NCBI GenBank assembly: GCA_903883965.1
Contig: CAISCU010000007.1
Location: 1 to 34,089, forward strand
Length of the DNA: 34,089 nt
Reading direction: 5' to 3'
Source of the DNA: an uncultured Bacteroidota bacterium
Lineage (GTDB): Bacteria > Bacteroidota > Bacteroidia > UKL13-3
The notes beneath the pieces are model-generated. The model was not told the origin of the DNA and searched no databases. It saw nothing but the letters and a program-made list of their open reading frames with translations. Below are positions 10,399 through 30,475 of the stretch, one piece after another. Every line of letters starts with the position of its first letter. The first letter of the stretch is position 1. The position numbers were made by a program, and so were the translations under genes.

Positions 10399-11427
10399 TT
10401 AGTTACTCATTTCACCAGAAGTAATGAATACATTGCTTCCCATATGTAAAATTGAAACCATAGAATACTGACCTGCTGTTTTGGTAAATCCATTTCTATT
10501 GTTTACGGTAGTACTACTTGCTGCAAAAGTAATTTGTCCGGTACCGTTTTGTACCACTGTACAATTGAAACCTGCAGGCAAACCCGAAGGGATGGTAAGA
10601 GTTACAGCTGTTGAATTGGTAAAATTCAAAATTTTTCCATTGTCGGCAGCAACCAATGTATAGTTTGCCGATTTGGCATTGATATTGGCCGCAAAACCAG
10701 ATAGTGTTGAAGTTGCTGAGTTGCCTCCGTTTAAACTTCCAGAAACAGTTGCACTTCCGTTCACATCTAATGTTGTTGCAGGACTTGAAGTACCAATACC
10801 CACATTACCTGTTGAATAATATATATTAGAACCCGAGGTTGTAAACTGACTCGAACGGCTATCGACATCTAATTTTTTCCAAGCAGTTCCATTCCAATAG
10901 TAAATACCTGGTACAACATCTGAAGCGGTTGCAGTATTGTAAACCACCAAGCCTGAAGCTGGAGATGTAACCGGGCTTGCTGTACTGCTTGCAGTTAAAG
11001 CCACTCTTGGAAGTAGCAATCCTTTGGTTGTTGAACTCAAATCTAAAATGGATGAAGCATCTGGTGAACTGGTTCCAACTCCTATGCTTCCTGTATTGTA
11101 GTATACATTAGAACCCGAGGTTGTAAACTGACTCGAACGGCTATCGACATCTAATTTTTTCCAAGCTGTTCCATTCCAATAGTAAATACCTGGTACAACA
11201 TCTGAAGCGGTTGCAGTATTGTAAACCACCAAACCTGTGGCTGGAGATGTTACCGGGCTTGCTGAACTGCTTCCTGTTAAAGCCACTCTTGGCAGTAACA
11301 ATCCTTTGGTTGTTGAACTCACTTCCAACATGGACGATGCATCTGGTGTATTGGTGCCAATTCCAACCTGTGCATTCACTGATACTGAAATGAGTACCAA
11401 GCAAATAAACGTATATAAAGTTTTCAT
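10399..11427 (-). CDS. Secreted tail-fibre-like repeat protein
   Basis: A 342-residue protein from the ATG at 11427, with signal peptide MKTLYTFICLVLISVSVNAQ. It then has two near-identical 94-residue units (residues 25-118 and 119-212) built on PDASS-L-SSTTKGLLLPRVALT and GIYYWNGTAWKKLDV motifs, and a C-terminal region resembling a tail-fibre or head-like beta domain (NGKILNFTNSTAVTLTIPSG). Bacteroidota often encode such VGIGT-repeat proteins at the cell surface and their function is unknown. An upstream start at 11451 overlaps the promoter box at 11449-11456 and would hide the signal peptide, so I reject it. It is the first gene of the operon. Confidence 0.72.
   Translation of the reverse strand: MKTLYTFICLVLISVSVNAQVGIGTNTPDASSMLEVSSTTKGLLLPRVALTGSSSASPVTSPATGLVVYNTATASDVVPGIYYWNGTAWKKLDVDSRSSQFTTSGSNVYYNTGSIGVGTSSPDASSILDLSSTTKGLLLPRVALTASSTASPVTSPASGLVVYNTATASDVVPGIYYWNGTAWKKLDVDSRSSQFTTSGSNIYYSTGNVGIGTSSPATTLDVNGSATVSGSLNGGNSATSTLSGFAANINAKSANYTLVAADNGKILNFTNSTAVTLTIPSGLPAGFNCTVVQNGTGQITFAASSTTVNNRNGFTKTAGQYSMVSILHMGSNVFITSGEMSN
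10792..11355 (-). repeat. Two tandem 282-base coding repeats (94 residues each)
   Basis: Copy 1 spans 11355-11074 and copy 2 spans 11073-10792. Long stretches are base-identical between copies, for instance from TTAGAACCCGAGG (10826 and 11108) across the TGGAATGG region. The high DNA identity implies a recent duplication or gene conversion. Confidence 0.85.
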
Positions 11428-21088: not shown

Positions 21089-21162
21089 GGTTCCATAGCT
21101 CAGCTGGATAGAGCAATGGTTTTCTAAACCATGGGCCGCAGGTTCGAGTCCTGCTGGAACTA
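21089..21162 (+). tRNA. tRNA-Arg (anticodon TCT)
   Basis: A complete cloverleaf: acceptor GGTTCCA/TGGAACT (first pair is a G-U wobble), D stem GCTC/GAGC, anticodon stem ATGGT/ACCAT around loop TTTCTAA with anticodon TCT, five-base variable loop, T arm GCAGG-TTCGAGT-CCTGC. It decodes AGA. CCA is not encoded after A21162. The upstream bases ATTTGCATCCCC (21050-21061) match those after the leftward promoter at 77-106, suggesting a shared stable-RNA promoter type. Confidence 0.95.
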
Positions 21163-21166
21163 CGAA

Positions 21167-21196: not shown

Positions 21197-21590
21197 TTTT
21201 ATGGCTTGAAGTGAACTGATTGAATATTTTGTTTGAGGTTCACCTTGAATTGAGCCAACACACAATTGTTTTCCCCTACCCTTTTTACGGCTTGCATTCC
21301 AATACCCCTTAGGTTCATTCATACTTTCCATAAAATTTGCGGTGATTCGCATCTTTTTAATTTACTCTTTCTTAATGGTTTTATATTTGAATAGAGGCGA
21401 GTGATTTACCCAAACCTTCCACTGCTTTTAAAATTTTGTGAGCCTATGAAAGCAACTGTTCAAAAACTTTTGACAAAACCAAATGGGTTGAAACTACGAA
21501 AACCAAATTAAGGTACATGGGCTACAAGATGGGAATTGTGAAAATTCTTGTAAGACCCAATTGATAAAATCCATTTTACAAAGTTCGGTT
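21197..21590. other. Non-coding region between tRNA-Arg and the higBA locus
   Basis: No credible gene. It holds direct repeat copy 1 (21378-21464) and a 13-base copy of the tRNA 3' end with its flank (AACTACGAAAACC at 21492-21504, also at 21158-21170). Nothing else is recognisable. Confidence 0.6.
21378..21464 (+). repeat. Direct repeat copy 1, left of higBA
   Basis: About 87 bases similar to 22689-22773. The copies share a 26-base identical core (21417-21442, beginning TTCCACTGC and ending TTTGTGAG), further matches on both sides and one gap. The repeats are in the same orientation about 1.3 kb apart and bracket the toxin-antitoxin locus. Confidence 0.8.
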
Positions 21591-21614
21591 TATAAAAGAA
21601 CTTTTATACATTTG
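21591..21614 (+). promoter_or_regulatory. higBA promoter and candidate operator
   Basis: TATAAAAG-AA-CTTTTATA (21591-21608) is a perfect 8-base inverted repeat. It runs into the minus-7 box TACATTTG (21607-21614), 13 bases before the ATG at 21628. An outer inverted pair, TTTACAAA and TTTGTAAA (21576-21583 and 21611-21618), frames it. Antitoxins with XRE domains usually repress their own promoter, so this is the likely HigA-type binding site (inference). Confidence 0.6.
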
Positions 21615-21627
21615 TAAAGTCGTTGAT

Positions 21628-21974
21628 ATGCGAATTATTGGAAAGAGAATACTTTCAAAAATTAAAAAGAAAAACATAGGGAATAAAAAGCTGTGCACAG
21701 AAATTGACAGGTTAATGTTGGATTTAAAAAAAGTTCAATCCAAGAGAAACAAATCTAAAAGACATTAGAAACGATGCCAATTGTGTACATAGTGATGGAT
21801 TTTATTTTTTTTGATTTGCATCTTCATAGAACGCTTATATTGATTGAACTTGACGATGAAGGAGAAGCGACAATAGTGTGGGCAGGTACGCATCAAGAAT
21901 ATGAAGCAACATTTAAAAACAATAAAATAACCATTGAAAAATGGCTAAGACAAAAAGGGTACATCGCACCATGA
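21628..21974 (+). pseudogene. higB: HigB-family toxin gene, broken by two frameshifts
   Basis: Three consecutive frames together give one HigB-like toxin. Frame 1 from the ATG at 21628 reads MRIIGKRILSKIKKKNIGNK and ends in a stop near 21766. Frame 2 continues NPRETNLKDIRNDANCVHSD and GFYFF. Frame 3 continues DLHLHRTLILIELDDEG, then WAGTHQEYEATF to the stop at 21972-21974. Removing one A from the A7 run (21726-21732) and one T from the T8 run (21805-21812) restores a single open frame of about 114 codons. HigB toxins are mRNA interferases. The original C-terminus is well preserved, so inactivation is recent, or the indels are sequencing errors. The stop overlaps the antitoxin ATG (ATGA). Confidence 0.8.
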
Positions 21975-22540
21975 AAACACATTTTGATATAGAAAAAATA
22001 GTAGAAAAGGGCATTATCATCAATGAGTTAGATTATGACAGAGCGCTTATTGCTGACAGAAAACTAAGACTGCTTGCAAAGGACAGTCTTCATTTTAAAA
22101 ACTTAAGAACCAAACTACGCGATATTTTAGAACGCTATGAAAATGCTAAGTGGCGTGACATTGACAAAATAGATGCGCAACAACTTTCTGAAAGTGTAAA
22201 GTCTGAACAAATTGCCGAACAAGAAAGACAATTTATAGAAAACAGAAAACAATCCATTAGAAAAAAACTCAAAGAACTGGATTTAACACAAGAAAATTTG
22301 GCATTCATTTTAGGCCATAAAAGCAAAACCTATATGTCTGAACTGATGAATGGAATTAAACCCTTTACATTAAAAGATTTAATTATTATCAATAGGTTGC
22401 TAAACATTAAAATGGAGGTATTGATTCCAGCCTTCCTTTCAAAAGAAGACCAAATAAAAGTAAAAGAAGCAGTGCGTAAATTAGACAAACCCAAAGTAAA
22501 ATTAAACAGCAACAATTTAGTTACTGTGTTCATTCAATAG
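21971..22540 (+). CDS. higA: HigA-type antitoxin with XRE helix-turn-helix
   Basis: A 189-residue protein from the ATG at 21971, which overlaps the toxin stop as ATGA; an in-frame start at 21941 lies inside the toxin and is less likely. Residues about 1-95 are an alpha-helical, charged region, and about 96-155 form an XRE/Cro-type helix-turn-helix (LKELDLTQENLAFILGHKSK, then YMSELMNGIKPFTLKDLIII). The reading frame is intact although the partner toxin is broken. It would bind the toxin and repress the promoter at 21591-21614. The locus sits between 85-base direct repeats. Confidence 0.82.
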   Translation: MKTHFDIEKIVEKGIIINELDYDRALIADRKLRLLAKDSLHFKNLRTKLRDILERYENAKWRDIDKIDAQQLSESVKSEQIAEQERQFIENRKQSIRKKLKELDLTQENLAFILGHKSKTYMSELMNGIKPFTLKDLIIINRLLNIKMEVLIPAFLSKEDQIKVKEAVRKLDKPKVKLNSNNLVTVFIQ

Positions 22541-22946
22541 CACTATTTAAAAAGCAGCTTTCCAACATTGGCGGTTAGGTGCTTCAAGCAAGAAAATTTA
22601 GCGTGGTTTTAACACCCACTAGGCTGATACTGCGTAATAAAAAAACTAGCCATTTTTAGTAAACTTATTATTTACATTTTCATAAATAGTTTTATATTTA
22701 ATTCAAGCAGGTCATTTACCCAAACTTCCACTGCTTTTAAAATTTTGTGAGTTTATGAAAACAAGTATTCAAATACGTGTACAATGTGCGCATTAGCAAT
22801 CAATGATGAGATTGAGAAAACACAATGCCTATTTGATAATTTAATTTAAAAGTTGAATAAAAATAAACAGAAACAAACTTGCGTATATGCTGCTATTTGA
22901 GGAAATACTGAATAGGAAAAAGGGTGGAAATAGCGTGTATATGGGA
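22541..22946. other. Non-coding region between higA and the cassette array
   Basis: No convincing gene. It holds direct repeat copy 2 (22689-22773). A GTTAGGTGC at 22573-22581 looks like the right box of an attC site, but no matching left box is visible. A short ORF of 21 codons from 22784 has no recognisable product. Confidence 0.5.
22689..22773 (+). repeat. Direct repeat copy 2, right of higA
   Basis: The partner of 21378-21464; the 26-base identical core is at 22726-22751. The first halves differ more than the second halves, so the duplication is not recent. Confidence 0.8.
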
Positions 22947-22955
22947 GTTATGCGT
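22947..22955 (+). repeat. Left end of cassette 1 (attC right-box core GTTATGCGT)
   Basis: GTTATGCGT here is the exact reverse complement of the R'' box ACGCATAAC of the attC at the end of cassette 1 (24868-24876). In integron cassettes, recombination cuts between G and TT, leaving the TT-end on the cassette's left; in the circular form this end pairs with its own R'' box. The cut point is therefore 22947/22948. No full attC or attI is recognisable to its left. Confidence 0.7.
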
Positions 22956-23002
22956 CATTCTATGCAACACCAAAATCATCCAGCATTAAGGACAAAAAAT
23001 AC

Positions 23003-23010
23003 TAATTTTG
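23003..23010 (+). promoter_or_regulatory. Minus-7 box of cassette 1
   Basis: TAATTTTG is a perfect TAnnTTTG box, 18 bases before the ATG at 23029. It overlaps the upstream in-frame TTG at 23008, which therefore cannot be the start. No clear minus-33 TTG is seen. Confidence 0.6.
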
Positions 23011-23028
23011 CCACTCAATATAAGTAAA

Positions 23029-23940
23029 ATGGTTAAGACAATTTTTAAGGGACTAATTATTATAAGTTTACTATTGACAAAATCACAAGTAAGTGCTTGT
23101 GACGTTTGCGGATGTTCAATGGGTGGAACAAATTTGGGAATACTGCCACAGTTTCATAAAAACTTTATTGGAGTTCATTATTTTTACAGAGGTTTCTCAT
23201 CCGAACATACAATATTGGGGACAGAAACAAAATCCACTTCCCAAGAACTTTTCCAGACAACTGAATTAAGAGGAAGGTTTCACTTGAATAAGAGAGTTCA
23301 ACTTTTTGTTCTTTTACCAATTAACATCAACCAACAAACAGAAAATAGTGTAACAAGCACATTTACTGGATTAGGGGACATTTCAACTTTTGCTAATTAC
23401 AGTATATACAACAACGGAGACAGTTTAGGTAAAAAGTGGAAGCACAATTTACAACTTGGTGGTGGGATAAAGCTGCCAACAGGAAGTTACAAAAAACTGG
23501 ACGAGAACAATATTTTAAATCCAAATATTCAGACAGGCACAGGTTCTTTTGATATTTTAATAGATGCTATTTACACAGTTCGCTATAAAAAGTGGGGACT
23601 GAACAATACAGTTTTTTATCGTTTCAACACCACCAATTCAAACGATTTTAAATTTGGCAATCGCTTTACTTTAGCCACTAGTTTTTTCTATTGGGCAAAC
23701 ATAAAAGGCTATTCACTATTGCCAAGTATTGGAATCAATTATGAGAAGGCAGACAAAGACTTACATAATTCTTTTATAGTTGACCAAAGTGGAGGTAGTT
23801 CGCTTTTTACCACATACGGACTTGATTTTTACTACAAAAGTTTCACATTAGGTGTCAATTTTCAATTGCCAGTATTTCAAGACAACCCAATAACTCAAAG
23901 TAAATTAAAAATCGGTGCAACCTTACTTTATAATTTCTAA
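23029..23940 (+). CDS. Outer-membrane beta-barrel protein with N-terminal CDVCGC motif
   Basis: A 303-residue protein from the ATG at 23029. A signal peptide (MVKTIFKGLIIISLLLTKSQVSA) is followed directly by CDVCGCSMGG, then a beta-barrel-like region (FIGVHYFYRGFSSEH, VQLFVLLPININQQT, LQLGGGIKLPTGSYKK, FRFNTTNSNDFKFGNRF). Bacteroidota proteins with this mature N-terminus are annotated as outer-membrane transporters; the three Cys suggest metal binding near the surface (inference). It is the first gene of cassette 1, followed by a small Cys-rich protein and a His-rich lipoprotein, so a metal-related function of the set is plausible but unproven. Confidence 0.7.
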   Translation: MVKTIFKGLIIISLLLTKSQVSACDVCGCSMGGTNLGILPQFHKNFIGVHYFYRGFSSEHTILGTETKSTSQELFQTTELRGRFHLNKRVQLFVLLPININQQTENSVTSTFTGLGDISTFANYSIYNNGDSLGKKWKHNLQLGGGIKLPTGSYKKLDENNILNPNIQTGTGSFDILIDAIYTVRYKKWGLNNTVFYRFNTTNSNDFKFGNRFTLATSFFYWANIKGYSLLPSIGINYEKADKDLHNSFIVDQSGGSSLFTTYGLDFYYKSFTLGVNFQLPVFQDNPITQSKLKIGATLLYNF

Positions 23941-23963
23941 AACGGATAATTTAAATCAATAAT

Positions 23964-24344
23964 TTGAAACAAATAGTAACCATATTACTTGCTACTCTCA
24001 TTCTATTGCAACCATTCAGTAAGATATGTATTTATGTTTCTTTTAAAATTAACCAAGACCGTATAGCCAAAACGCTTTGTGTTCAAAAGGAAATAAAGAA
24101 CAACTGTTGTAAAGGAAAATGTCATTTAGAAAAGGAACTCAAAAAAGCAGATGAACAGCAACAGAAGCAACTTCCGCCATCGCTGAAAGAGAAATCAGAA
24201 GTGTTGTATTTTCAAAGTTTTCCGAAAAATAGTTTATTAAATGTCCAATTTAAATCATCAAAAGAAAAGCTAATTTGCTTTTATCATGTTTCCTATTCTT
24301 CATCCTACATTGGCGAGATTTTTAAACCGCCAAAATTGATTTGA
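23964..24344 (+). CDS. Small exported Cys-rich protein
   Basis: A 126-residue protein. The start is TTG at 23964: an in-frame stop lies four codons upstream and no ATG precedes the signal-like segment (KQIVTILLATLILLQPFSKICIYV). Residues about 47-56 form a NNCCKGKCHLEK motif with three Cys and one His, likely a metal site. I recognise the type as a small Bacteroidota family that occurs beside metal-linked barrel genes, but it has no established function. It starts 23 bases after the barrel gene and is probably co-transcribed with it. Confidence 0.6.
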   Translation: MKQIVTILLATLILLQPFSKICIYVSFKINQDRIAKTLCVQKEIKNNCCKGKCHLEKELKKADEQQQKQLPPSLKEKSEVLYFQSFPKNSLLNVQFKSSKEKLICFYHVSYSSSYIGEIFKPPKLI

Positions 24345-24381
24345 ACTTAAACAACCGGACATTAAATTATTAAAGTTAATC

Positions 24382-24397
24382 TACTCAACATTGAGTA
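24382..24397 (+). promoter_or_regulatory. Palindrome upstream of the lipoprotein gene
   Basis: TACTCAA-CA-TTGAGTA is a perfect 7-base inverted repeat with a 2-base centre, 45 bases before the ATG at 24442. A CTACTCA/TGAGTAG pair (24381-24387 and 24398-24404) extends the symmetry. It could be an operator or an RNA hairpin. No regulator gene lies in the same cassette. Confidence 0.4.
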
Positions 24398-24441
24398 TGA
24401 GTAGTCATTTCAAACAATTTTCACAAAATAAAATAAACAAA

Positions 24442-24846
24442 ATGCAAAATAAAATATTCATTGCAGCAATAGCTGCAACCATAGCCATAGCAAGTATTAG
24501 CTCTTGCAAAAAAGACGAAGTAAAAGACACAGAACAACCTGTAATCACACTCAATGAGCCAATGATGAATGACACAATTTCACTGGCAGTTGAAGACAGC
24601 GTTCATATTCAGTTTTCGGCAAGCGACAATGATGAACTTCATGATGTGGCTGTAAATATCACAAATGCAGGTGGAACAAATGTTTACACAAATTCAGCTG
24701 ACGTTGATGCAAAAACATATTCATTTCATCAACATTTCCACCCGACAGGAATTATAGGTGTTACTCAATTTACCTTAAAAATTGACGCATCAGACCATAA
24801 TGCTAATGCGGACAGCAAGACGGTGACATTTTATGTAAAACCATAA
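24442..24846 (+). CDS. Lipoprotein with DUF4625-like domain, His-rich
   Basis: A 134-residue protein from the ATG at 24442; an upstream TTG at 24391 lies in the palindrome and is rejected. It has a lipoprotein signal (MQNKIFIAAIAATIAIASIS) with Cys at SSC. The mature part is a beta-sandwich-like domain (TEQPVITLNEPMMND, HIQFSASDNDELHDVAVNI, FTLKIDASDHN) resembling DUF4625. SFHQHFHPTG carries three His, suggesting metal binding. It is the last gene of cassette 1, ending 21 bases before the attC. Confidence 0.65.
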   Translation: MQNKIFIAAIAATIAIASISSCKKDEVKDTEQPVITLNEPMMNDTISLAVEDSVHIQFSASDNDELHDVAVNITNAGGTNVYTNSADVDAKTYSFHQHFHPTGIIGVTQFTLKIDASDHNANADSKTVTFYVKP

Positions 24847-24867
24847 GACTGACAGGAAGAAGAACGA

Positions 24868-24996
24868 ACGCATAACAGCGGGTTTAAAGAAATTGGGGGT
24901 TAATTGAGCATTCTGCCTCGCATCAACATTTGTGGTAGCTTGAATGTTTTCTGATCCTAAATCCCCAACTTCTTAAACCCACAAAACGTTATCGGC
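24868..24996 (+). repeat. attC site 1, end of cassette 1
   Basis: R'' box ACGCATAAC (24868-24876) and R' box GTTATCGGC (24988-24996) frame a long imperfect stem. The arm GGGTTTAAAGAAATTGGGG (24880-24898) pairs with CCCCAACTTCTTAAACCC (24963-24980), apart from one unpaired A and one mismatch; extrahelical bases are a known attC feature. The cut is expected at 24988/24989. The central loop carries CAACATTTGTGGTA, shared with the other two sites. Confidence 0.8.
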
Positions 24997-25064
24997 AACC
25001 CTATGACGACACAGCAACCTTCAAACTGACAGACAAAAAACTTGTGCAGACGACTTAGTTTAAC

Positions 25065-25095
25065 TTCCTTTGTAAAAAATACCAGATAGTATCTT
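25065..25095 (+). promoter_or_regulatory. Promoter and operator of the tetR gene
   Basis: The minus-7-like box TTCCTTTG (25065-25072, one mismatch) is followed by AAAATACCAGATAGTATCTT (25076-25095), a partly palindromic site with an ATAC/GTAT core that matches the operator at 25701-25720 at 16 of 20 positions. It covers the expected transcription start and ends 2 bases before the ATG, so TetR would autorepress. Confidence 0.7.
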
Positions 25096-25097
25096 TT

Positions 25098-25688
25098 ATG
25101 AAAAAAGCCGAAGCAACACGACAGACCATTTTGCAGAAGTCCTTTGAACTTATTTATGCTAAGGGTTATCAAAACACAAGTATAGACGACATTCTTGCTA
25201 CAACACAAGTAACCAAAGGAGCTTTTTACTACCATTTCAAAAACAAAGACGAAATGGGAATTGCTATCATCAACGAACTGCTTAAACCTGCTCTGACAAG
25301 TGGTTTTAACGACCTTCTAAAAAGCAATGAGAACCCTTTAGATGCTATCTACCAATTGATGAACCACCTTTTGATGAAGAATGATTTTTTGAAAGTTGAA
25401 TACGGTTGTCCTGCTGCCAACTTCACACAGGAAATGACACCTTGGAATGAAGCATTCAGTATTGCCCTAAAAGAAATAACTCAACAATGGACAAAGGCAA
25501 TGACTTCCGCTATTGAAACTGGGAAAAAAAATGGATTTGTAAAGAGTGAAGCAAACGCCAAACAAGTTACCTTGTTCGTAACATCAGGTTACTGGGGCAT
25601 TCGGAATTTTGGCAAATTAGAGAATAGCAAAAAAGTGTATTCGCCATATTTAAAGGAACTTAAATCCTACCTTGACAACTTGAAATAA
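25098..25688 (+). CDS. TetR/AcrR-family transcriptional repressor
   Basis: A 196-residue protein. The N-terminal helix-turn-helix is complete (TRQTILQKSFELIYAKGYQN, TSIDDILATTQVTKGAFYYH, then FKNKDEMGIAI), the AcrR-type DNA-binding fold. The C-terminal ligand domain is about residues 50-196 with YGCPAANFTQEMTP; the ligand is unknown. It should bind the palindromes at 25076-25095 and 25701-25720 and control itself and the four genes after it. It lies 101 bases after the left end of cassette 2, within an attC-bounded unit. Confidence 0.88.
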   Translation: MKKAEATRQTILQKSFELIYAKGYQNTSIDDILATTQVTKGAFYYHFKNKDEMGIAIINELLKPALTSGFNDLLKSNENPLDAIYQLMNHLLMKNDFLKVEYGCPAANFTQEMTPWNEAFSIALKEITQQWTKAMTSAIETGKKNGFVKSEANAKQVTLFVTSGYWGIRNFGKLENSKKVYSPYLKELKSYLDNLK

Positions 25689-25700
25689 AATTTTTCACTA

Positions 25701-25735
25701 AACATACCACTTAGTATGTTTTTTAATTACCTTTG
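25701..25735 (+). promoter_or_regulatory. Operator and promoter of the cassette 2 membrane-protein operon
   Basis: AACATACCACTTAGTATGTT (25701-25720) is a perfect 7-base inverted repeat (AACATAC/GTATGTT) with a 6-base centre. It is followed by TACCTTTG (25728-25735), a perfect minus-7 box, 19 bases before the ATG at 25755. The operator covers the minus-33 side of the promoter, so bound repressor would block RNA polymerase. The same palindrome occurs before tetR. Confidence 0.8.
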
Positions 25736-25754
25736 CATCGTAAGCGAAAAAGCG

Positions 25755-26213
25755 ATGTATCAAATACTCACATTTTACCACAACTTTATGCGATGGCTTG
25801 TCTTGGCAAGTTTGCTATTTGCCATCTACAGAGCATACAAAGGATATTTCTCAAAAGCAACATTTTCCAAAATAGACAATGCAGTTAGACATTGGACAGC
25901 AACCATTGCACACGTTCAATTGATGATAGGAATGGTGCTTTATTTCCAAAGCCCAATTATCAAATACTTTATTACAAACTTTAAAGAAGCGATAAAGACT
26001 TTTGACTTATTATTCTTTGGACTTATTCACGGTTCACTAATGCTTACAGCAATTGTGATTATTACAATTGGTTCTGCAAAAGCAAAACGCAAACCAAAAG
26101 ACAATGAGAAATTTAAAACAATGCTGATTTGGTTTTCATTTGCCTTAATCATTATTTTCATTGCAATTCCCTGGCCATTTTCACCATTAGCAAACAGACC
26201 CTATTATAGATAA
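25755..26213 (+). CDS. Small four-span membrane protein (cytochrome B-like annotation)
   Basis: A 152-residue protein from the ATG at 25755; an in-frame ATG at 25716 lies within the operator, so it is rejected. There are about four membrane segments (FMRWLVLASLLFAIYRAY, ATIAHVQLMIGMVLYF, LLFFGLIHGSLMLTAIVIIT, TMLIWFSFALIIIFIAIPWP). His residues in segments 1-3 (YHNFMRW, IAHVQLM, LIHGSLM) could ligate haem, which fits the common cytochrome B annotation, but that is not proven. It is the first gene after the TetR-controlled promoter and is followed by a DUF3817 gene after 1 base. Confidence 0.65.
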   Translation: MYQILTFYHNFMRWLVLASLLFAIYRAYKGYFSKATFSKIDNAVRHWTATIAHVQLMIGMVLYFQSPIIKYFITNFKEAIKTFDLLFFGLIHGSLMLTAIVIITIGSAKAKRKPKDNEKFKTMLIWFSFALIIIFIAIPWPFSPLANRPYYR

Positions 26214-26214
26214 T

Positions 26215-26523
26215 ATGATAAACTTATTCAAAACAAAAATCGGACGACTTCGTCTAATTGGATACTTGGAAGGACTGTCTTTGTTAGTATTAATATTTAT
26301 TGCTGCTCCCATGAAACACATTTTTCATAACCCAGCCCTTTCAACATTACTTGGACCAATTCACGGAGCAATATTTTTGGTTTTTATGCTTAACACTATG
26401 AGTGTTGGTATTGAACAAAACTGGAAGTTCAAAACAACTACTTGGAAAATTCTTGTTGCCTGCTTCATCCCATTTGGCACATTCTATATTGACCACAAAA
26501 TTTTCAAAAACATACAAGAGTAA
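26215..26523 (+). CDS. DUF3817 integral membrane protein
   Basis: A 102-residue protein with three hydrophobic segments (LIGYLEGLSLLVLIFIAAPM, LLGPIHGAIFLVFMLNTM, WKILVACFIPFGTFYI). The GYLEGLSLLVL start and GPIHGAIFL are typical of DUF3817, a family whose function is unknown. It starts 1 base after the upstream stop, and its own stop overlaps the rhodanese ATG by one base (TAATG). Confidence 0.8.
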   Translation: MINLFKTKIGRLRLIGYLEGLSLLVLIFIAAPMKHIFHNPALSTLLGPIHGAIFLVFMLNTMSVGIEQNWKFKTTTWKILVACFIPFGTFYIDHKIFKNIQE

Positions 26524-26894
26524 TGAAAACATTTATAATAATTATTTCATCAATTTTAGTAATCTACATTGGTTATAGAACCTATCGTTTTGCAATGCTT
26601 TCTAACGGACTGGACAAGAAAATTGCCAATGGGGCAATTGTGTTAGATGTGCGAACTGTTGAGGAATATGCAACGGGACACATTGACGGCTCAATCAACA
26701 TTTCATTAGGGACAATTAGAGAAAGATACACCGAACTTGAGACAAGTAAAACATATATCACTTGCTGTTCTCACGGTTTGAGAAGTGTAAAAGTTGTATC
26801 ACTTCTAAAAGAACGAGGATTTAAAAATGTATTTAACGGTGGTGCTTGGATAGACCTTGAAAAAATAGTTAAAGAACAAAAAGCAAAGCAATGA
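26523..26894 (+). CDS. Membrane-anchored rhodanese-domain protein
   Basis: A 123-residue protein with an N-terminal membrane segment (FIIIISSILVIYIGY) and a single rhodanese domain. The active-site loop CCSHGLRS has the catalytic Cys82 in the CxxGxRS pattern; VLDVRTVEEYATGHIDGSIN is the usual N-terminal signature. It probably transfers sulfane sulfur at the membrane, perhaps in sulfide or persulfide detoxification; this is inference. The downstream gene starts in its stop (ATGA). Confidence 0.85.
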   Translation: MKTFIIIISSILVIYIGYRTYRFAMLSNGLDKKIANGAIVLDVRTVEEYATGHIDGSINISLGTIRERYTELETSKTYITCCSHGLRSVKVVSLLKERGFKNVFNGGAWIDLEKIVKEQKAKQ

Positions 26895-27100
26895 TTTTTG
26901 TTTTCAAAACAAATGTGTCGCCAGACAACTTAGAAACCCTTCAACCACTCCTTGACAAACATTTACCTAATTCAAAATGGAGTTTCGACCTTGATGACTG
27001 CGACAATATATTTCGCATTGACAGTCAATTGCAAATAGCAGAAACAATAATCAAACTTATTCAAGACAACGGCTACAGGTGTGAAGAGTTGCCCGACTGA
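26891..27100 (+). CDS. Small ferredoxin-fold-like protein
   Basis: A 69-residue protein of unknown function. The pattern (FVFKTNVSPDNLETLQPLLD, then WSFDLDDCDNIFRID, IIKLIQDNGYRCEEL) suggests a beta-alpha-beta fold like heavy-metal-associated domains but lacks the CxxC metal site. Two single Cys are present. It is the last gene of the TetR operon, ending 15 bases before attC site 2. Confidence 0.6.
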   Translation: MIFVFKTNVSPDNLETLQPLLDKHLPNSKWSFDLDDCDNIFRIDSQLQIAETIIKLIQDNGYRCEELPD

Positions 27101-27115
27101 ACCGAAAGAAGGGCA

Positions 27116-27251
27116 GCCGATAACAGCGGTTTTGCGTAATGGCAGGTGACGTGCTTCGTATGAACATTTGTGGTATATTTGAACAGTGTGCTTCGTATCA
27201 AGTTTTGTGGTAAAAATCCGCCACTGCGCCAAGCGCCAAACCGTTGTAGCC
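27116..27251 (+). repeat. attC site 2, end of cassette 2
   Basis: R'' GCCGATAAC (27116-27124) and R' GTTGTAGCC (27243-27251) frame an imperfect stem (CGGTTTTGCG against CGCCAAACCG). R'' pairs perfectly with the left end of cassette 2 (GTTATCGGC at 24988-24996) but poorly with the adjacent R'. The loop holds a 37-base tandem duplication beginning GTGCTTCGTAT at 27151 and 27188. TATATTTG at 27174-27181 is a perfect minus-7 box that could serve cassette 3. Confidence 0.8.
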
Positions 27252-27291
27252 AACCTAAGAACCTAAAATTTAATAGCTTAAATTAGACAAA

Positions 27292-27642
27292 ATGACAGAC
27301 AATTTTAACGTTGATGAAATCCTAAACAAGAACCGACTTGACACCCAAAATTACATTAATAAAATGGTAGCTTTTAACAAACAGCTGACATTTTCAGATG
27401 CTAAAGCAAACAGTTTAATAGCGGACGATTTATTAGAAATGGTAAATAAACATAGATATCTGCACGGAGAAAACATCCGTGATCTTTTCATTACCTGTAT
27501 AAATCAGATTAAAAAACAATATTTAATTGCTGACACACCTAATAAAGTGAGAGAAATATCAAATTCACTAGTCACTTTTATGGCCTCAGAAGCCACTATA
27601 TTAAACAATGGAGGCTATAGCGCGATAAGTATTAATACCTAA
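27292..27642 (+). CDS. Hypothetical protein, cassette 3
   Basis: A 116-residue, mostly helical soluble protein (DILNKNRLDTQ-like start; LIADDLLEMVNKHRYLHGEN, then FITCINQIKKQYLIADTPNK). I do not recognise the family. It starts 41 bases after the attC 2 right box and is followed by a WYL-like gene after 38 bases. No signal peptide or membrane span. Confidence 0.6.
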   Translation: MTDNFNVDEILNKNRLDTQNYINKMVAFNKQLTFSDAKANSLIADDLLEMVNKHRYLHGENIRDLFITCINQIKKQYLIADTPNKVREISNSLVTFMASEATILNNGGYSAISINT

Positions 27643-27680
27643 CTTATATACTAAAAAAACGACTCATTAACTAAATTATT

Positions 27681-28037
27681 ATGACACCTAAAGAACGACA
27701 AATTGCTGAGATTTTAACTACTGCTATAAAAGGAAATAATTTGATAGAGTTCAAATACGACAATGAATATAGGACTGTAGAACCTTATTTATTTGGTGAG
27801 TTATATAGTGTGAATCAAACACATGAACAAGAAGGAAAATATGCATTAAGGGCTTGGCTTGTAAGTGGGTTTTCAAGTTTACCTGTCGACATCAGAACAG
27901 GTGACCGATGGAGAAAATATGAACTAAAAAGAATTATGGAACTTACAATCCTAAACGAGAGATATAAAATAATACGACCATTGTATAACCCCAATGACAA
28001 AGATTTTAAAAGAATTAATTATCGTATTGATGTATAA
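27681..28037 (+). CDS. WYL-like domain protein, stand-alone
   Basis: A 118-residue soluble protein. The pattern (NNLIEFKYDNEYRTVEPYLF, then LRAWLVSGFSSLPVDIRTGD, RWRKYELKRIMELTIL) resembles the SH3-like WYL domain, which occurs in regulators and often near defence systems and usually binds nucleic acid or a small ligand. A helix-turn-helix is absent. The identification is by pattern only. It is the second gene of cassette 3, 34 bases before attC site 3. Confidence 0.55.
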   Translation: MTPKERQIAEILTTAIKGNNLIEFKYDNEYRTVEPYLFGELYSVNQTHEQEGKYALRAWLVSGFSSLPVDIRTGDRWRKYELKRIMELTILNERYKIIRPLYNPNDKDFKRINYRIDV

Positions 28038-28071
28038 ATAATAATATATCCATTTCTACACGAAAAAGGCT

Positions 28072-28190
28072 GGCTATAACAGCACCTACCCAAAAGGCGG
28101 GGTTTAGTTTCGCTGATTTTCAATTCGTGTTCCAAAGACAGTTTTGTGGTAAAAGTCCCGCCCTTCTTGAAACCGCCAAACGTTATAGCC
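28072..28190 (+). repeat. attC site 3, end of cassette 3
   Basis: R'' GGCTATAAC (28072-28080) and R' GTTATAGCC (28182-28190) are perfect reverse complements. The stem arms AAAAGGCGGG and CCCGCCCTTCTT pair with an unpaired base, as attC sites typically do. The loop carries CAGTTTTGTGGTAAAAG, the same kind of motif as in the other two sites. Confidence 0.8.
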
Positions 28191-28267
28191 ATTTTAGGAC
28201 GACAGTTCCACAGACGACAGACCGACCAAAATTTAAACAAATCAACATCAAACTATTTTATTACTTC
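28191..28267. other. Region after attC 3, possible left end of a lost fourth cassette
   Basis: Following TTATAGCC, the sequence (TTTTAGGACGACAGTTCC, then CAGACGACAGACCGACC) resembles the left ends of other cassettes, such as CTATGACGACACAGC after attC 1. No gene is present before the convergent stop at 28268, so a fourth cassette may have lost its content. Weakly supported. Confidence 0.35.
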
Positions 28268-30475
28268 TCACCTTAACAATGTAACCGTTCCGTAAGCAGT
28301 TTTTGTTTGTTCTGAGGGGAATTGGTAGTTGATTAAATACACATACACTCCACTCGAACAATCTACACCTTTGAATTTACCATCCCATTTATTTGATGGG
28401 TTAGTGGTACTAAAAATGCGTTCGCCCCATCTGTTAAAAACTAAGCATTCATACTGCGCGTAAGTGCAATTGGCGAGTGGGTATAATTCGTCATTTAAGC
28501 CATCTCCATTGGGAGTAAATACATTTGGAACCACCAACTGACAAGATTCTACGTTTGTATCACAATTGATTACCGATAGGGTCTTGTACAAGGTATCTAT
28601 ACCGCAAGAAAAATTAACAATTGCACGAATGCGGTAACTACCCTTTACTGAAAATAAATGTAACGGAGCAAAAGCATTTGAACTGTTATTGGTGGCACTT
28701 AATGGGTCATCAAAGTTCCAAGTAACAGATGAAAATGTATTGTTGGTAATTACCGAAAACTGAGTGCCATTTTGAAGGCATGAATCTAAAGTAGCAATGC
28801 TACCCTTGCAGCATTGCCCTATTTGCAACCGTCTACAAATGGTTGTTGCACTTGATGCACCTGGTTCTTTAAAACTCACACAAACATTGTATTCACCTGC
28901 AGAAGCAAACAAATGGGTTGGAAACGGAGAGGGACTGAGGCCTGTAATGGTAACTGTGTCATTAACGCCACTTGATTTGTCATCAAAACTCCAAAAGAAA
29001 TAAGGTGAATTGCTAGTTCCTACTGCTTGAAATGCAATACTGGCAGGCAGTGTACAGGTATCTCCTACTAATTTTATTCCTGTGATACTTGGTGTGGTAA
29101 CATTGTTACAATCAATGATGGATAAGCCAGGCAAAAACAATGTATCTGTGCCACATGCATTGCTTAGGATTGCCAGCACATTGTAATTCCCAATTTTTGA
29201 AAATACATGACTAGAGCTAAAACCAACTGCTGTATTATTGGCTCCAGAACTGGGGTCTCCAAAGTTCCACGTAACTCCTGTAATATTGTTGGTATCAGAT
29301 ATTGAAAACCGCGTATTGTTTCCAACACATGTATCGGAGAAAAGGATGGCATTTGTACTGGAATTGGGTTGGTCATTGGCGTAATAGATCCATTTGGGCA
29401 AACCGTAACCTCCACCACCACTCAGGTTGGTGATAACATTTTGTTGAAATCCGCAAGCAGCTCCTAATTGATTGGGGCAATTGATGACATCTATACCACC
29501 TGAATTGATATAAACCTTATCATCTGAGGCCAATTGCATGGAGGCAGGCTGAGCAAATCCGGTTGAAATTTGGTAAACAGAATTTTGTATAGCCGCAGCT
29601 GTTGTTTGAGAAATGTCGTATTGTAAAATGGCTTGCAAATTGCTGATGTATAAAACCTTTCCATTGGGTGAAAACTCAACTCCATAAATAATGGGGCTTG
29701 GCACATTGTATTTCCAAGCAATTACATTAGACACTTTACCTGTTGCATTATCAAAATCAAACAATTCCATGGTTGAAGTAAACAACTCACCCATGGCCAA
29801 TTTGTTAAATTGTCTATTGATTTTCAGGTGACCTGCTCCATTACCTTGGGTAGCGCCTAATTTAGAAACAACCGGATTGTTTTGGATACCACTTTCACTC
29901 ACTTTGAACGCATAAAAACTATTCCCCAAATTGTCGTGAGTAAGCAACCAATAACTTTTTTGATCAGATGCAGGAACAACTTCAAGTTTTTCAGATGTGG
30001 TTTGAAAGAGTGAAATGTTTTTTTGACCAGCTACAATGTCTCCTAAACCTGCATTCAAATTCATGTCTACAATGCTATACCTAATACCATTACTTGAAGA
30101 CTGCTCGTCTATTGTTACTAGGTAATACAAGTTGTTACTGCTTGGCTTGGGTATAATGACTGCTGCTGTGGTAGACGACAAAAGAGAGGGTGTTCCGCCC
30201 AATAAGCCACTTCCATTTGGCATAATTTGGTTGTTTGCATCCCATACATTGATGCCATTTGTATAAAACAACAATGCACCTGTTTTTCTATCAGCAATTG
30301 AAGCACTACCCTCTGCAGTTGACAAGAGAGCACCAGATACATTGCTAGGAGGTATTGTGTTGAAATCTATACCGCCACCATTGCCAAAACGCCATTGGTT
30401 GTTTTGCTTTTGAGCTATTGCATTGAAACAAATGGGCAAGGTAATGAACAATAGGATGAACCTAACTATTTTCAT
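28268..30475 (-). CDS. Secreted PKD/beta-propeller protein with type B T9SS sorting domain
   Basis: A 735-residue exported protein with signal peptide MKIVRFILLFITLPICFNAIA. Residues about 20-365 look like a beta-propeller (NNQWRFGNGGGIDFNT, LYYLVTIDEQSSSNG, VEFSPNGKVLYISNLQ). Three PKD-like modules follow at about 380-640 (ITGVTWNFGDPSSGANN, then FFWSFDDKSSG, SVTWNFDDPLSATNN). The C-terminus (VVPNVFTPNGDGLNDELYPL, YECLVFNRWGERIFST) is a gliding motility-associated CHU_C/type B T9SS sorting domain. The product should be carried to the surface by the type IX secretion system; no catalytic site is visible. Confidence 0.88.
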   Translation of the reverse strand: MKIVRFILLFITLPICFNAIAQKQNNQWRFGNGGGIDFNTIPPSNVSGALLSTAEGSASIADRKTGALLFYTNGINVWDANNQIMPNGSGLLGGTPSLLSSTTAAVIIPKPSSNNLYYLVTIDEQSSSNGIRYSIVDMNLNAGLGDIVAGQKNISLFQTTSEKLEVVPASDQKSYWLLTHDNLGNSFYAFKVSESGIQNNPVVSKLGATQGNGAGHLKINRQFNKLAMGELFTSTMELFDFDNATGKVSNVIAWKYNVPSPIIYGVEFSPNGKVLYISNLQAILQYDISQTTAAAIQNSVYQISTGFAQPASMQLASDDKVYINSGGIDVINCPNQLGAACGFQQNVITNLSGGGGYGLPKWIYYANDQPNSSTNAILFSDTCVGNNTRFSISDTNNITGVTWNFGDPSSGANNTAVGFSSSHVFSKIGNYNVLAILSNACGTDTLFLPGLSIIDCNNVTTPSITGIKLVGDTCTLPASIAFQAVGTSNSPYFFWSFDDKSSGVNDTVTITGLSPSPFPTHLFASAGEYNVCVSFKEPGASSATTICRRLQIGQCCKGSIATLDSCLQNGTQFSVITNNTFSSVTWNFDDPLSATNNSSNAFAPLHLFSVKGSYRIRAIVNFSCGIDTLYKTLSVINCDTNVESCQLVVPNVFTPNGDGLNDELYPLANCTYAQYECLVFNRWGERIFSTTNPSNKWDGKFKGVDCSSGVYVYLINYQFPSEQTKTAYGTVTLLR

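Follow-up and report, generated by a model that had tools for sequence, protein, structure and literature searches.

The 34,089-bp stretch of DNA analysed here (the window), from an uncultured Bacteroidota bacterium, very probably carries, on an integron-type gene cassette, a TetR switch with a repressor that regulates its own gene, and the probability of this reading is put at about 0.8. To our knowledge, a single cassette that holds five genes under their own repressor is a new arrangement. Its regulatory elements and genes are as follows.

25042-25044, + strand: candidate -33 element of the tetR promoter, TTG, read from the sequence.
25065-25072, + strand: -7 box of the tetR promoter, TTCCTTTG, of the Bacteroidota TAnnTTTG type, read from the sequence; CTTTG is conserved before operator 1 in homologues.
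25076-25095, + strand: putative operator 1 (core 25079-25092), between the -7 box and the tetR start codon.
25098-25688, + strand: TetR repressor, NemR-like, from Pfam, conservation and alignment with Escherichia coli NemR.
25699-25722, + strand: putative operator 2 (core 25704-25717), a near-perfect 24-bp palindrome by its extended consensus; core in 79 of 81 loci.
25728-25735, + strand: -7 box of the operon promoter, TACCTTTG, read from the sequence; in 60 of 79 loci such a box follows the operator core at 9-11 bp.
25755-26213, + strand: integral membrane protein with four helices, encoded by the leading gene of the predicted repressed operon; no Pfam or NCBIfam family above cut-off, AlphaFold2 pLDDT 91.
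26215-26523, + strand: DUF3817 membrane protein (Pfam 1.2e-22; TIGR03954 5.2e-24).
26523-26894, + strand: rhodanese with a likely N-terminal membrane anchor (Pfam 1.9e-14; loop CSHGLR intact).
26891-27100, + strand: 69-aa protein with a predicted HMA-like ferredoxin fold (AlphaFold2 pLDDT 88; Foldseek).

The 20-mers of operator 1 (AAAATACCAGATAGTATCTT, 25076-25095) and of operator 2 as first described (AACATACCACTTAGTATGTT, 25701-25720) differ at 4 of 20 positions, and the identity of 16 in 20 and the ATAC-N6-GTAT symmetry given in the original prediction were correct. The position assigned to operator 2 was also right; its length was not, as the site extends over 24 bp rather than 20, and most positions of its flanking AAAC/GTTT are shared by 62-63 of 63 loci. 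ATAC-N6-GTAT was found twice in the window versus a chance mean of 0.27, and three of 100 shuffles reached two; by themselves, these window statistics hint at paired operators. In the 2.48-Mb genome, ATACCANNTAGTAT was found at both operator sites and at no others (reversed control, 0), and a search for AAMATACYRNNYRGTATSTT with zero mismatches likewise returned the operator pair only. The looser core ATACYRNNYRGTAT has five further copies in the genome. Four of these lie within long reading frames, and the fifth is 83 bp from a contig end with flanks that look coding.

Conservation was computed for both sites in 80 homologous tetR loci (57-78% TetR protein identity, one genome per species), which with the window locus make 81; so far as the records tell, the 80 are all from Bacteroidota. 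Conservation of the palindrome in homologous cassettes had been named beforehand as a check on the two-operator reading; this evidence is the decisive part, and the reading stands. Of the 81 loci, 79 carry the strict core at the operon promoter, ahead of the gene for the membrane protein. Core sites across all loci (670 kb) numbered 110, versus 2 for the reversed pattern. The extended consensus of operator 2 reads AAAACATACTAATTAGTATGTTTT; of 63 loci, 62 have its flanking C and all 63 its flanking G. Where tetR is the first gene, a site with up to two mismatches was found in the 45 bp before it in 44 of 64 loci, versus 2.6% of random windows of that length; about one third of these tetR-first loci have a degenerate operator 1 or none at all. 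In the 17 loci in which tetR is not the first gene, only one has a site before tetR, and the operon operator remains at the membrane gene. The palindrome thus tracks the promoter that needs control and not tetR, as fits a repressor operator, and the comparison strongly supports the proposed autorepression together with repression of the downstream operon.

The shared gene core of these loci, as defined by reading-frame clustering, consists of tetR, the 153-aa membrane protein (80 of 81) and DUF3817 (72 of 81); the rhodanese and the small 69-aa protein were found in 29 and 13 of the 81 loci respectively. In the nearest relative of the same family (59% TetR identity) both sites are present, and the core of operator 2, ATACCACTTAGTAT, is identical. 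Close homologues were found in none of three same-genus genomes searched and in one of twenty from the same family, and this near-absence indicates that the operon is accessory. A plasmid search returned only two TetR homologues, both distant (48% and 32%).

The regulator passed the Pfam gathering cut-offs for TetR_N (47.5 bits, cut-off 24) and TetR_C_13 (34.1 bits, cut-off 27), which places it in the TetR_C_13 subgroup, and its solved relatives among the structure matches include 3knw and NemR itself. Cys104 and Lys173 were computed to be invariant in 81 TetR homologues and align with Cys106 and Lys175 of E. coli NemR. NemR reportedly senses reactive chlorine species and some electrophiles, and a Cys106-Lys175 sulfenamide has been proposed (PMC8748444); a NemR-based biosensor that lacked the lysine still responded (PMC8748444). 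By analogy with NemR, the common Cys/Lys pair suggests that the inducers may be electrophiles or oxidants. The cysteine is kept in the nearest TetRs of relatives and absent from more distant ones.

It is quite possible, at somewhat under even odds, that TetR is instead freed by a small hydrophobic ligand in its C-terminal pocket, as in LmrA/YxaF and QacR, and that Cys104 is purely structural. The TetR has a weak Pfam match to TetR_C_13_2 (LmrA/YxaF-like), which agrees with such a ligand, and Cys104 is common to other solved family members; since the GC(P/L) cysteine motif occurs also in other TetR_C_13 proteins, its invariance may be structural. However, Lys173 is invariant along with Cys104, and the pair matches that of NemR. 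Among candidate inducers, electrophiles and oxidants are accordingly ranked first, closely followed by a pocket ligand, and sulfur species take third place. In locus L087, a related palindrome (ATACCAATCGGTAT, 2025-2038) was observed closely before the start of a distant TetR of the same subgroup (28% identity), which suggests that the operator type predates the clade of the window TetR.

Among the products of the operon, the membrane protein was predicted by AlphaFold2 as a four-helix bundle (pLDDT 91) with histidines invariant at positions 10, 54 and 93 of the homologue alignment. Its open reading frame begins at 25716, inside operator 2; homologues begin MYQ, and the true start is therefore placed at about 25755. 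A structure search with this protein gave no PDB match at E<=0.001, and VIA-align returned rows of the helical-bundle type (TRPML, Z up to 12.7), short of the Z of about 13 at which the tool itself places common helical arrangements. An identity as T4SS_pilin was rejected (18.6 bits versus a cut-off of 26.6). For DUF3817, a literature search found no paper naming it in title or abstract. The best Foldseek matches to the predicted structure of the 69-aa protein were Ccc2a/Atox1 (E 3e-3, TM 0.73-0.78), and the protein has no CxxC metal site despite its HMA-like fold. The rhodanese has a hydrophobic N-terminal stretch that resembles a membrane anchor and is likely to be one, and its catalytic loop CSHGLR is invariant in 19 sequences. 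PADLOC gave no match for the operon. As a guess, the operon may protect the membrane against redox-active or electrophilic compounds.

The rhodanese had also been read as a hint of sulfur species as the inducer, a suggestion that its presence in only 29 of 81 loci does not support. That TetR senses sulfide, polysulfide or persulfide through Cys104, with an operon that handles sulfane sulfur, is unlikely: the rhodanese active site is intact and a lone conserved cysteine could be persulfidated, but no rhodanese was found in 52 of 81 loci, in which the operator, the membrane protein and DUF3817 persist, and known persulfide sensors have two cysteines as a rule.

The operon and both of its control sites lie between attC-like elements, and the array in the window is composed as follows.

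22948-24988, + strand: upstream cassette with genes for an outer-membrane-type protein, a Cys-rich protein and a DUF4625 protein; its predicted 5' junction was found at 22947.
24868-24996, + strand: attC of the upstream cassette (nhmmer 4e-26, the site being among the three used for the model; repeat families D2/D6).
24989-27243, + strand: tetR-operon cassette of 2255 bp, which holds both promoters and operators, delimited by R'' against its own 5' junction.
27116-27251, + strand: attC of the tetR cassette (nhmmer).
27244-28182, + strand: downstream cassette with genes for 116-aa and 118-aa proteins (attC junction analysis).
28072-28190, + strand: third attC site (nhmmer and junction analysis).

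The window has three imperfect palindromes, each about 130 bp long, with ends at 24996, 27251 and 28190, and the tetR cassette has its 5' junction (G24988/TTATCGGC) at the 3' end of the upstream attC. In a true cassette, R'' should complement the cassette's own 5' junction rather than its 3' junction, because both derive from the same circle. R'' of the tetR cassette, GCCGATAAC, exactly complements the 5' junction of the same cassette, GTTATCGGC, and agrees with the 3' junction, GTTGTAGCC, at only 3 of 6 variable positions. Similarly, R'' of the upstream cassette, ACGCATAAC, predicts the 5' junction GTTATGCG, of which the sole + strand copy in the window, at 22947, sits just before the first gene of that cassette. 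Over 23 such cassettes, R'' agrees with the own 5' junction at 5.6 of 6 positions and with the 3' junction at 2.9 of 6 (p 5e-5 by shuffling), the own junction being better in 17 cassettes, tied in two and worse in one; this exception is the third cassette of the window, where R'' fits the 3' junction one base better. The fold of the bottom-strand attC gave a z of -2.85 for 24868-24996 and of 0.43 and 0.10 for the other two sites, of which the terminal stems pair nonetheless. An Rfam search of 22000-29000 gave no match. On these computed boundaries, 24989-27243 reads as an integron-type cassette in a three-cassette array in which no integrase was detected. The genome, a draft assembly of 55 contigs, has only Xer-level matches to integron integrases, none of them near the window, and the cassette may therefore be immobile here.

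The upstream cassette is likewise multi-gene, and its products include an outer-membrane-type protein with CDVCGC, a Cys-rich protein of 126 aa and a DUF4625 protein. Elsewhere in the window, an HTH gene at 21941-22540 is enclosed by a pair of 58-bp direct repeats (86%), which lie at 21410 and 22719 at a distance of 1309 bp (window 21353-22776); a tRNA-Arg (21089-21163) lies close by, and a further insertion at a tRNA hotspot is possible. A 282-bp tandem duplication, 89% identical, was also observed at 10790-11353 within a single reading frame.

Beyond the window, related attC elements were found in 122 of 295 genomes of the class (E<=0.001; some matches are short). A second cluster in the same genome, with at least three attC-like sites, lies near a contig end (contig C40, 26000-33389). 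Attached to the tetR operon itself, attC-like elements were seen upstream of tetR in locus L008 and directly after DUF3817 in L005, with just one attC per locus beside the operon in other genomes. The far junction predicted for L005 had only a one-mismatch match (3421), at about chance level, and those predicted for L072 and L008 had no sensible match; the window alone gives sequence evidence for a complete cassette around the operon. In other genomes, head-to-tail arrays of the same attC family lie downstream of an Xer/IntI-like recombinase in the same orientation (L155, L169 and L167; also L164, L168 and L163). These recombinases often measure 350-370 aa and carry an additional N-terminal part; their matches to integrase_gron and NF040815 are mostly under cut-off. 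The integron-integrase model is matched in two stretches, at its N- and C-terminal parts, with its middle (about 180-238) nearly absent, and the recombinases seem to be without the IntI-specific insertion. The majority share the orientation of the cassettes. The recombinase gene reaches a contig end in several genomes, as would be expected if repetitive or variable arrays follow.

That the attC-like elements are dispersed MITE-like repeats and the operon not a cassette is very unlikely: the element family is widespread and the genome of the window has no adjacent integrase, but the own-junction pairing rule in 23 cassettes (p 5e-5) and the head-to-tail arrays that adjoin integron-type recombinases elsewhere argue against it. 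It is tentatively proposed that the Bacteroidota class of the window genome has a widespread integron-like platform, perhaps missed by standard surveys because its recombinase is under the integron-integrase cut-off, in which attC arrays directly downstream of this Xer/IntI-like recombinase trade multi-gene, self-repressed cassettes. A survey of complete genomes with IntegronFinder 2.0 in 2022 named a complete integron in Bacteroidetes for Salinibacter alone (PMC9024848), and Bacteroidota are listed among integron phyla in a review (PMC8618304). Integrons in Bacteroidota are thus known in principle, and the present attC family may be little described.

The arrangement of sites and promoters bears on how the switch would work. 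Promoters of Bacteroidota have a -7 box of the form TAnnTTTG, and a scan for sigma-70 promoters found no excess over shuffles, as expected for this phylum. The -7 box that was said to lie against operator 2 is present just downstream of it, at 25728-25735, and operator 2 overlaps the -33/spacer region of the operon promoter. In the homologues, the distance from the core end to a -7 box of the TAnnTTTG type is 9-11 bp in 60 of 79 loci. Operator 1 is expected to lie over the tetR transcription start, judging from its position and the known Bacteroidota promoter form. It is highly improbable that the palindromes are bound by another regulator or form RNA hairpins: palindromes could in principle act in RNA, and the TetR-operator reading is drawn from sequence, but operator 2 is upstream of the -7 box and hence absent from the operon mRNA, the core, conserved base by base, co-occurs with this TetR clade and follows the promoter position, and the zero-mismatch pair is unique in the genome.

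As operators of the cassette TetR, the two sites would act as follows, with binding and repression inferred from the above. A TetR dimer at operator 2 would bar RNA polymerase from the membrane protein, DUF3817, rhodanese and HMA-fold genes, and TetR at the less perfect operator 1, at the expected tetR start, would curb tetR synthesis. A ligand or thiol-reactive compound would free TetR from the DNA. The most likely sensor would be Cys104, the counterpart of NemR Cys106, which makes electrophiles and oxidants the first inducer candidates. The promoters, putative operators, repressor and targets all fall inside 24989-27243 between attC junctions, so that the whole circuit could move as a single cassette, independent of an external integron promoter.

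A TetR switch on an integron-type cassette would be a portable regulatory module, and a receiving cell would express the operon only upon contact with the inducer. This would be one solution to the problem of expressing a large multi-gene cassette at a distance from an integron promoter without a constant cost to the cell. The 24-mer operator and the single conserved cysteine make the regulator directly testable, and the attC family suggests that Bacteroidota engage in integron-like exchange more often than has been assumed.

Among known systems, the regulator is a NemR-like addition to the ordinary TetR switches. In E. coli (nemR-nemA-gloA), a related TetR repressor likewise heads its operon, and the sequence before nemR contains TAGACCGACTGGTCTA, with an ACC-n4-GGT core in register with the ACY-n4-RGT of the window operators. 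However, profile comparison with NemR gave only about 45 bits, and the NemR operator is TAGACC-n4-GGTCTA, with the flank TAGACC versus ACATAC here, where the window has ACATACYRNNYRGTATGT. Also, NemR controls N-ethylmaleimide reductase and glyoxalase, whereas the window operon contains neither NemA nor GloA and the system uses two separate operators at two promoters. The best NCBIfam match, over nearly the whole TetR length, was AcuR of acrylate utilization (NF051457), but at 83.4 bits versus a cut-off of 247 it falls short of the equivalog, and the AcuR target operon is unrelated. LmrA and YxaF (QdoR) of Bacillus subtilis, for which the inducers are flavonoids, have a related C-terminal domain, and the YxaF structure 1sgm was matched at 2e-7; the window lacks their lmrB or qdoI-type targets. 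Most integron cassettes have been described as promoterless (PMC9024848). Integrase-less cassette arrays (CALIN) share with the window attC-like sites with YAAC/GTT ends, head-to-tail cassettes and own-junction pairing, but the window cassette differs from them in its five genes, its two promoters and its own repressor and operators.
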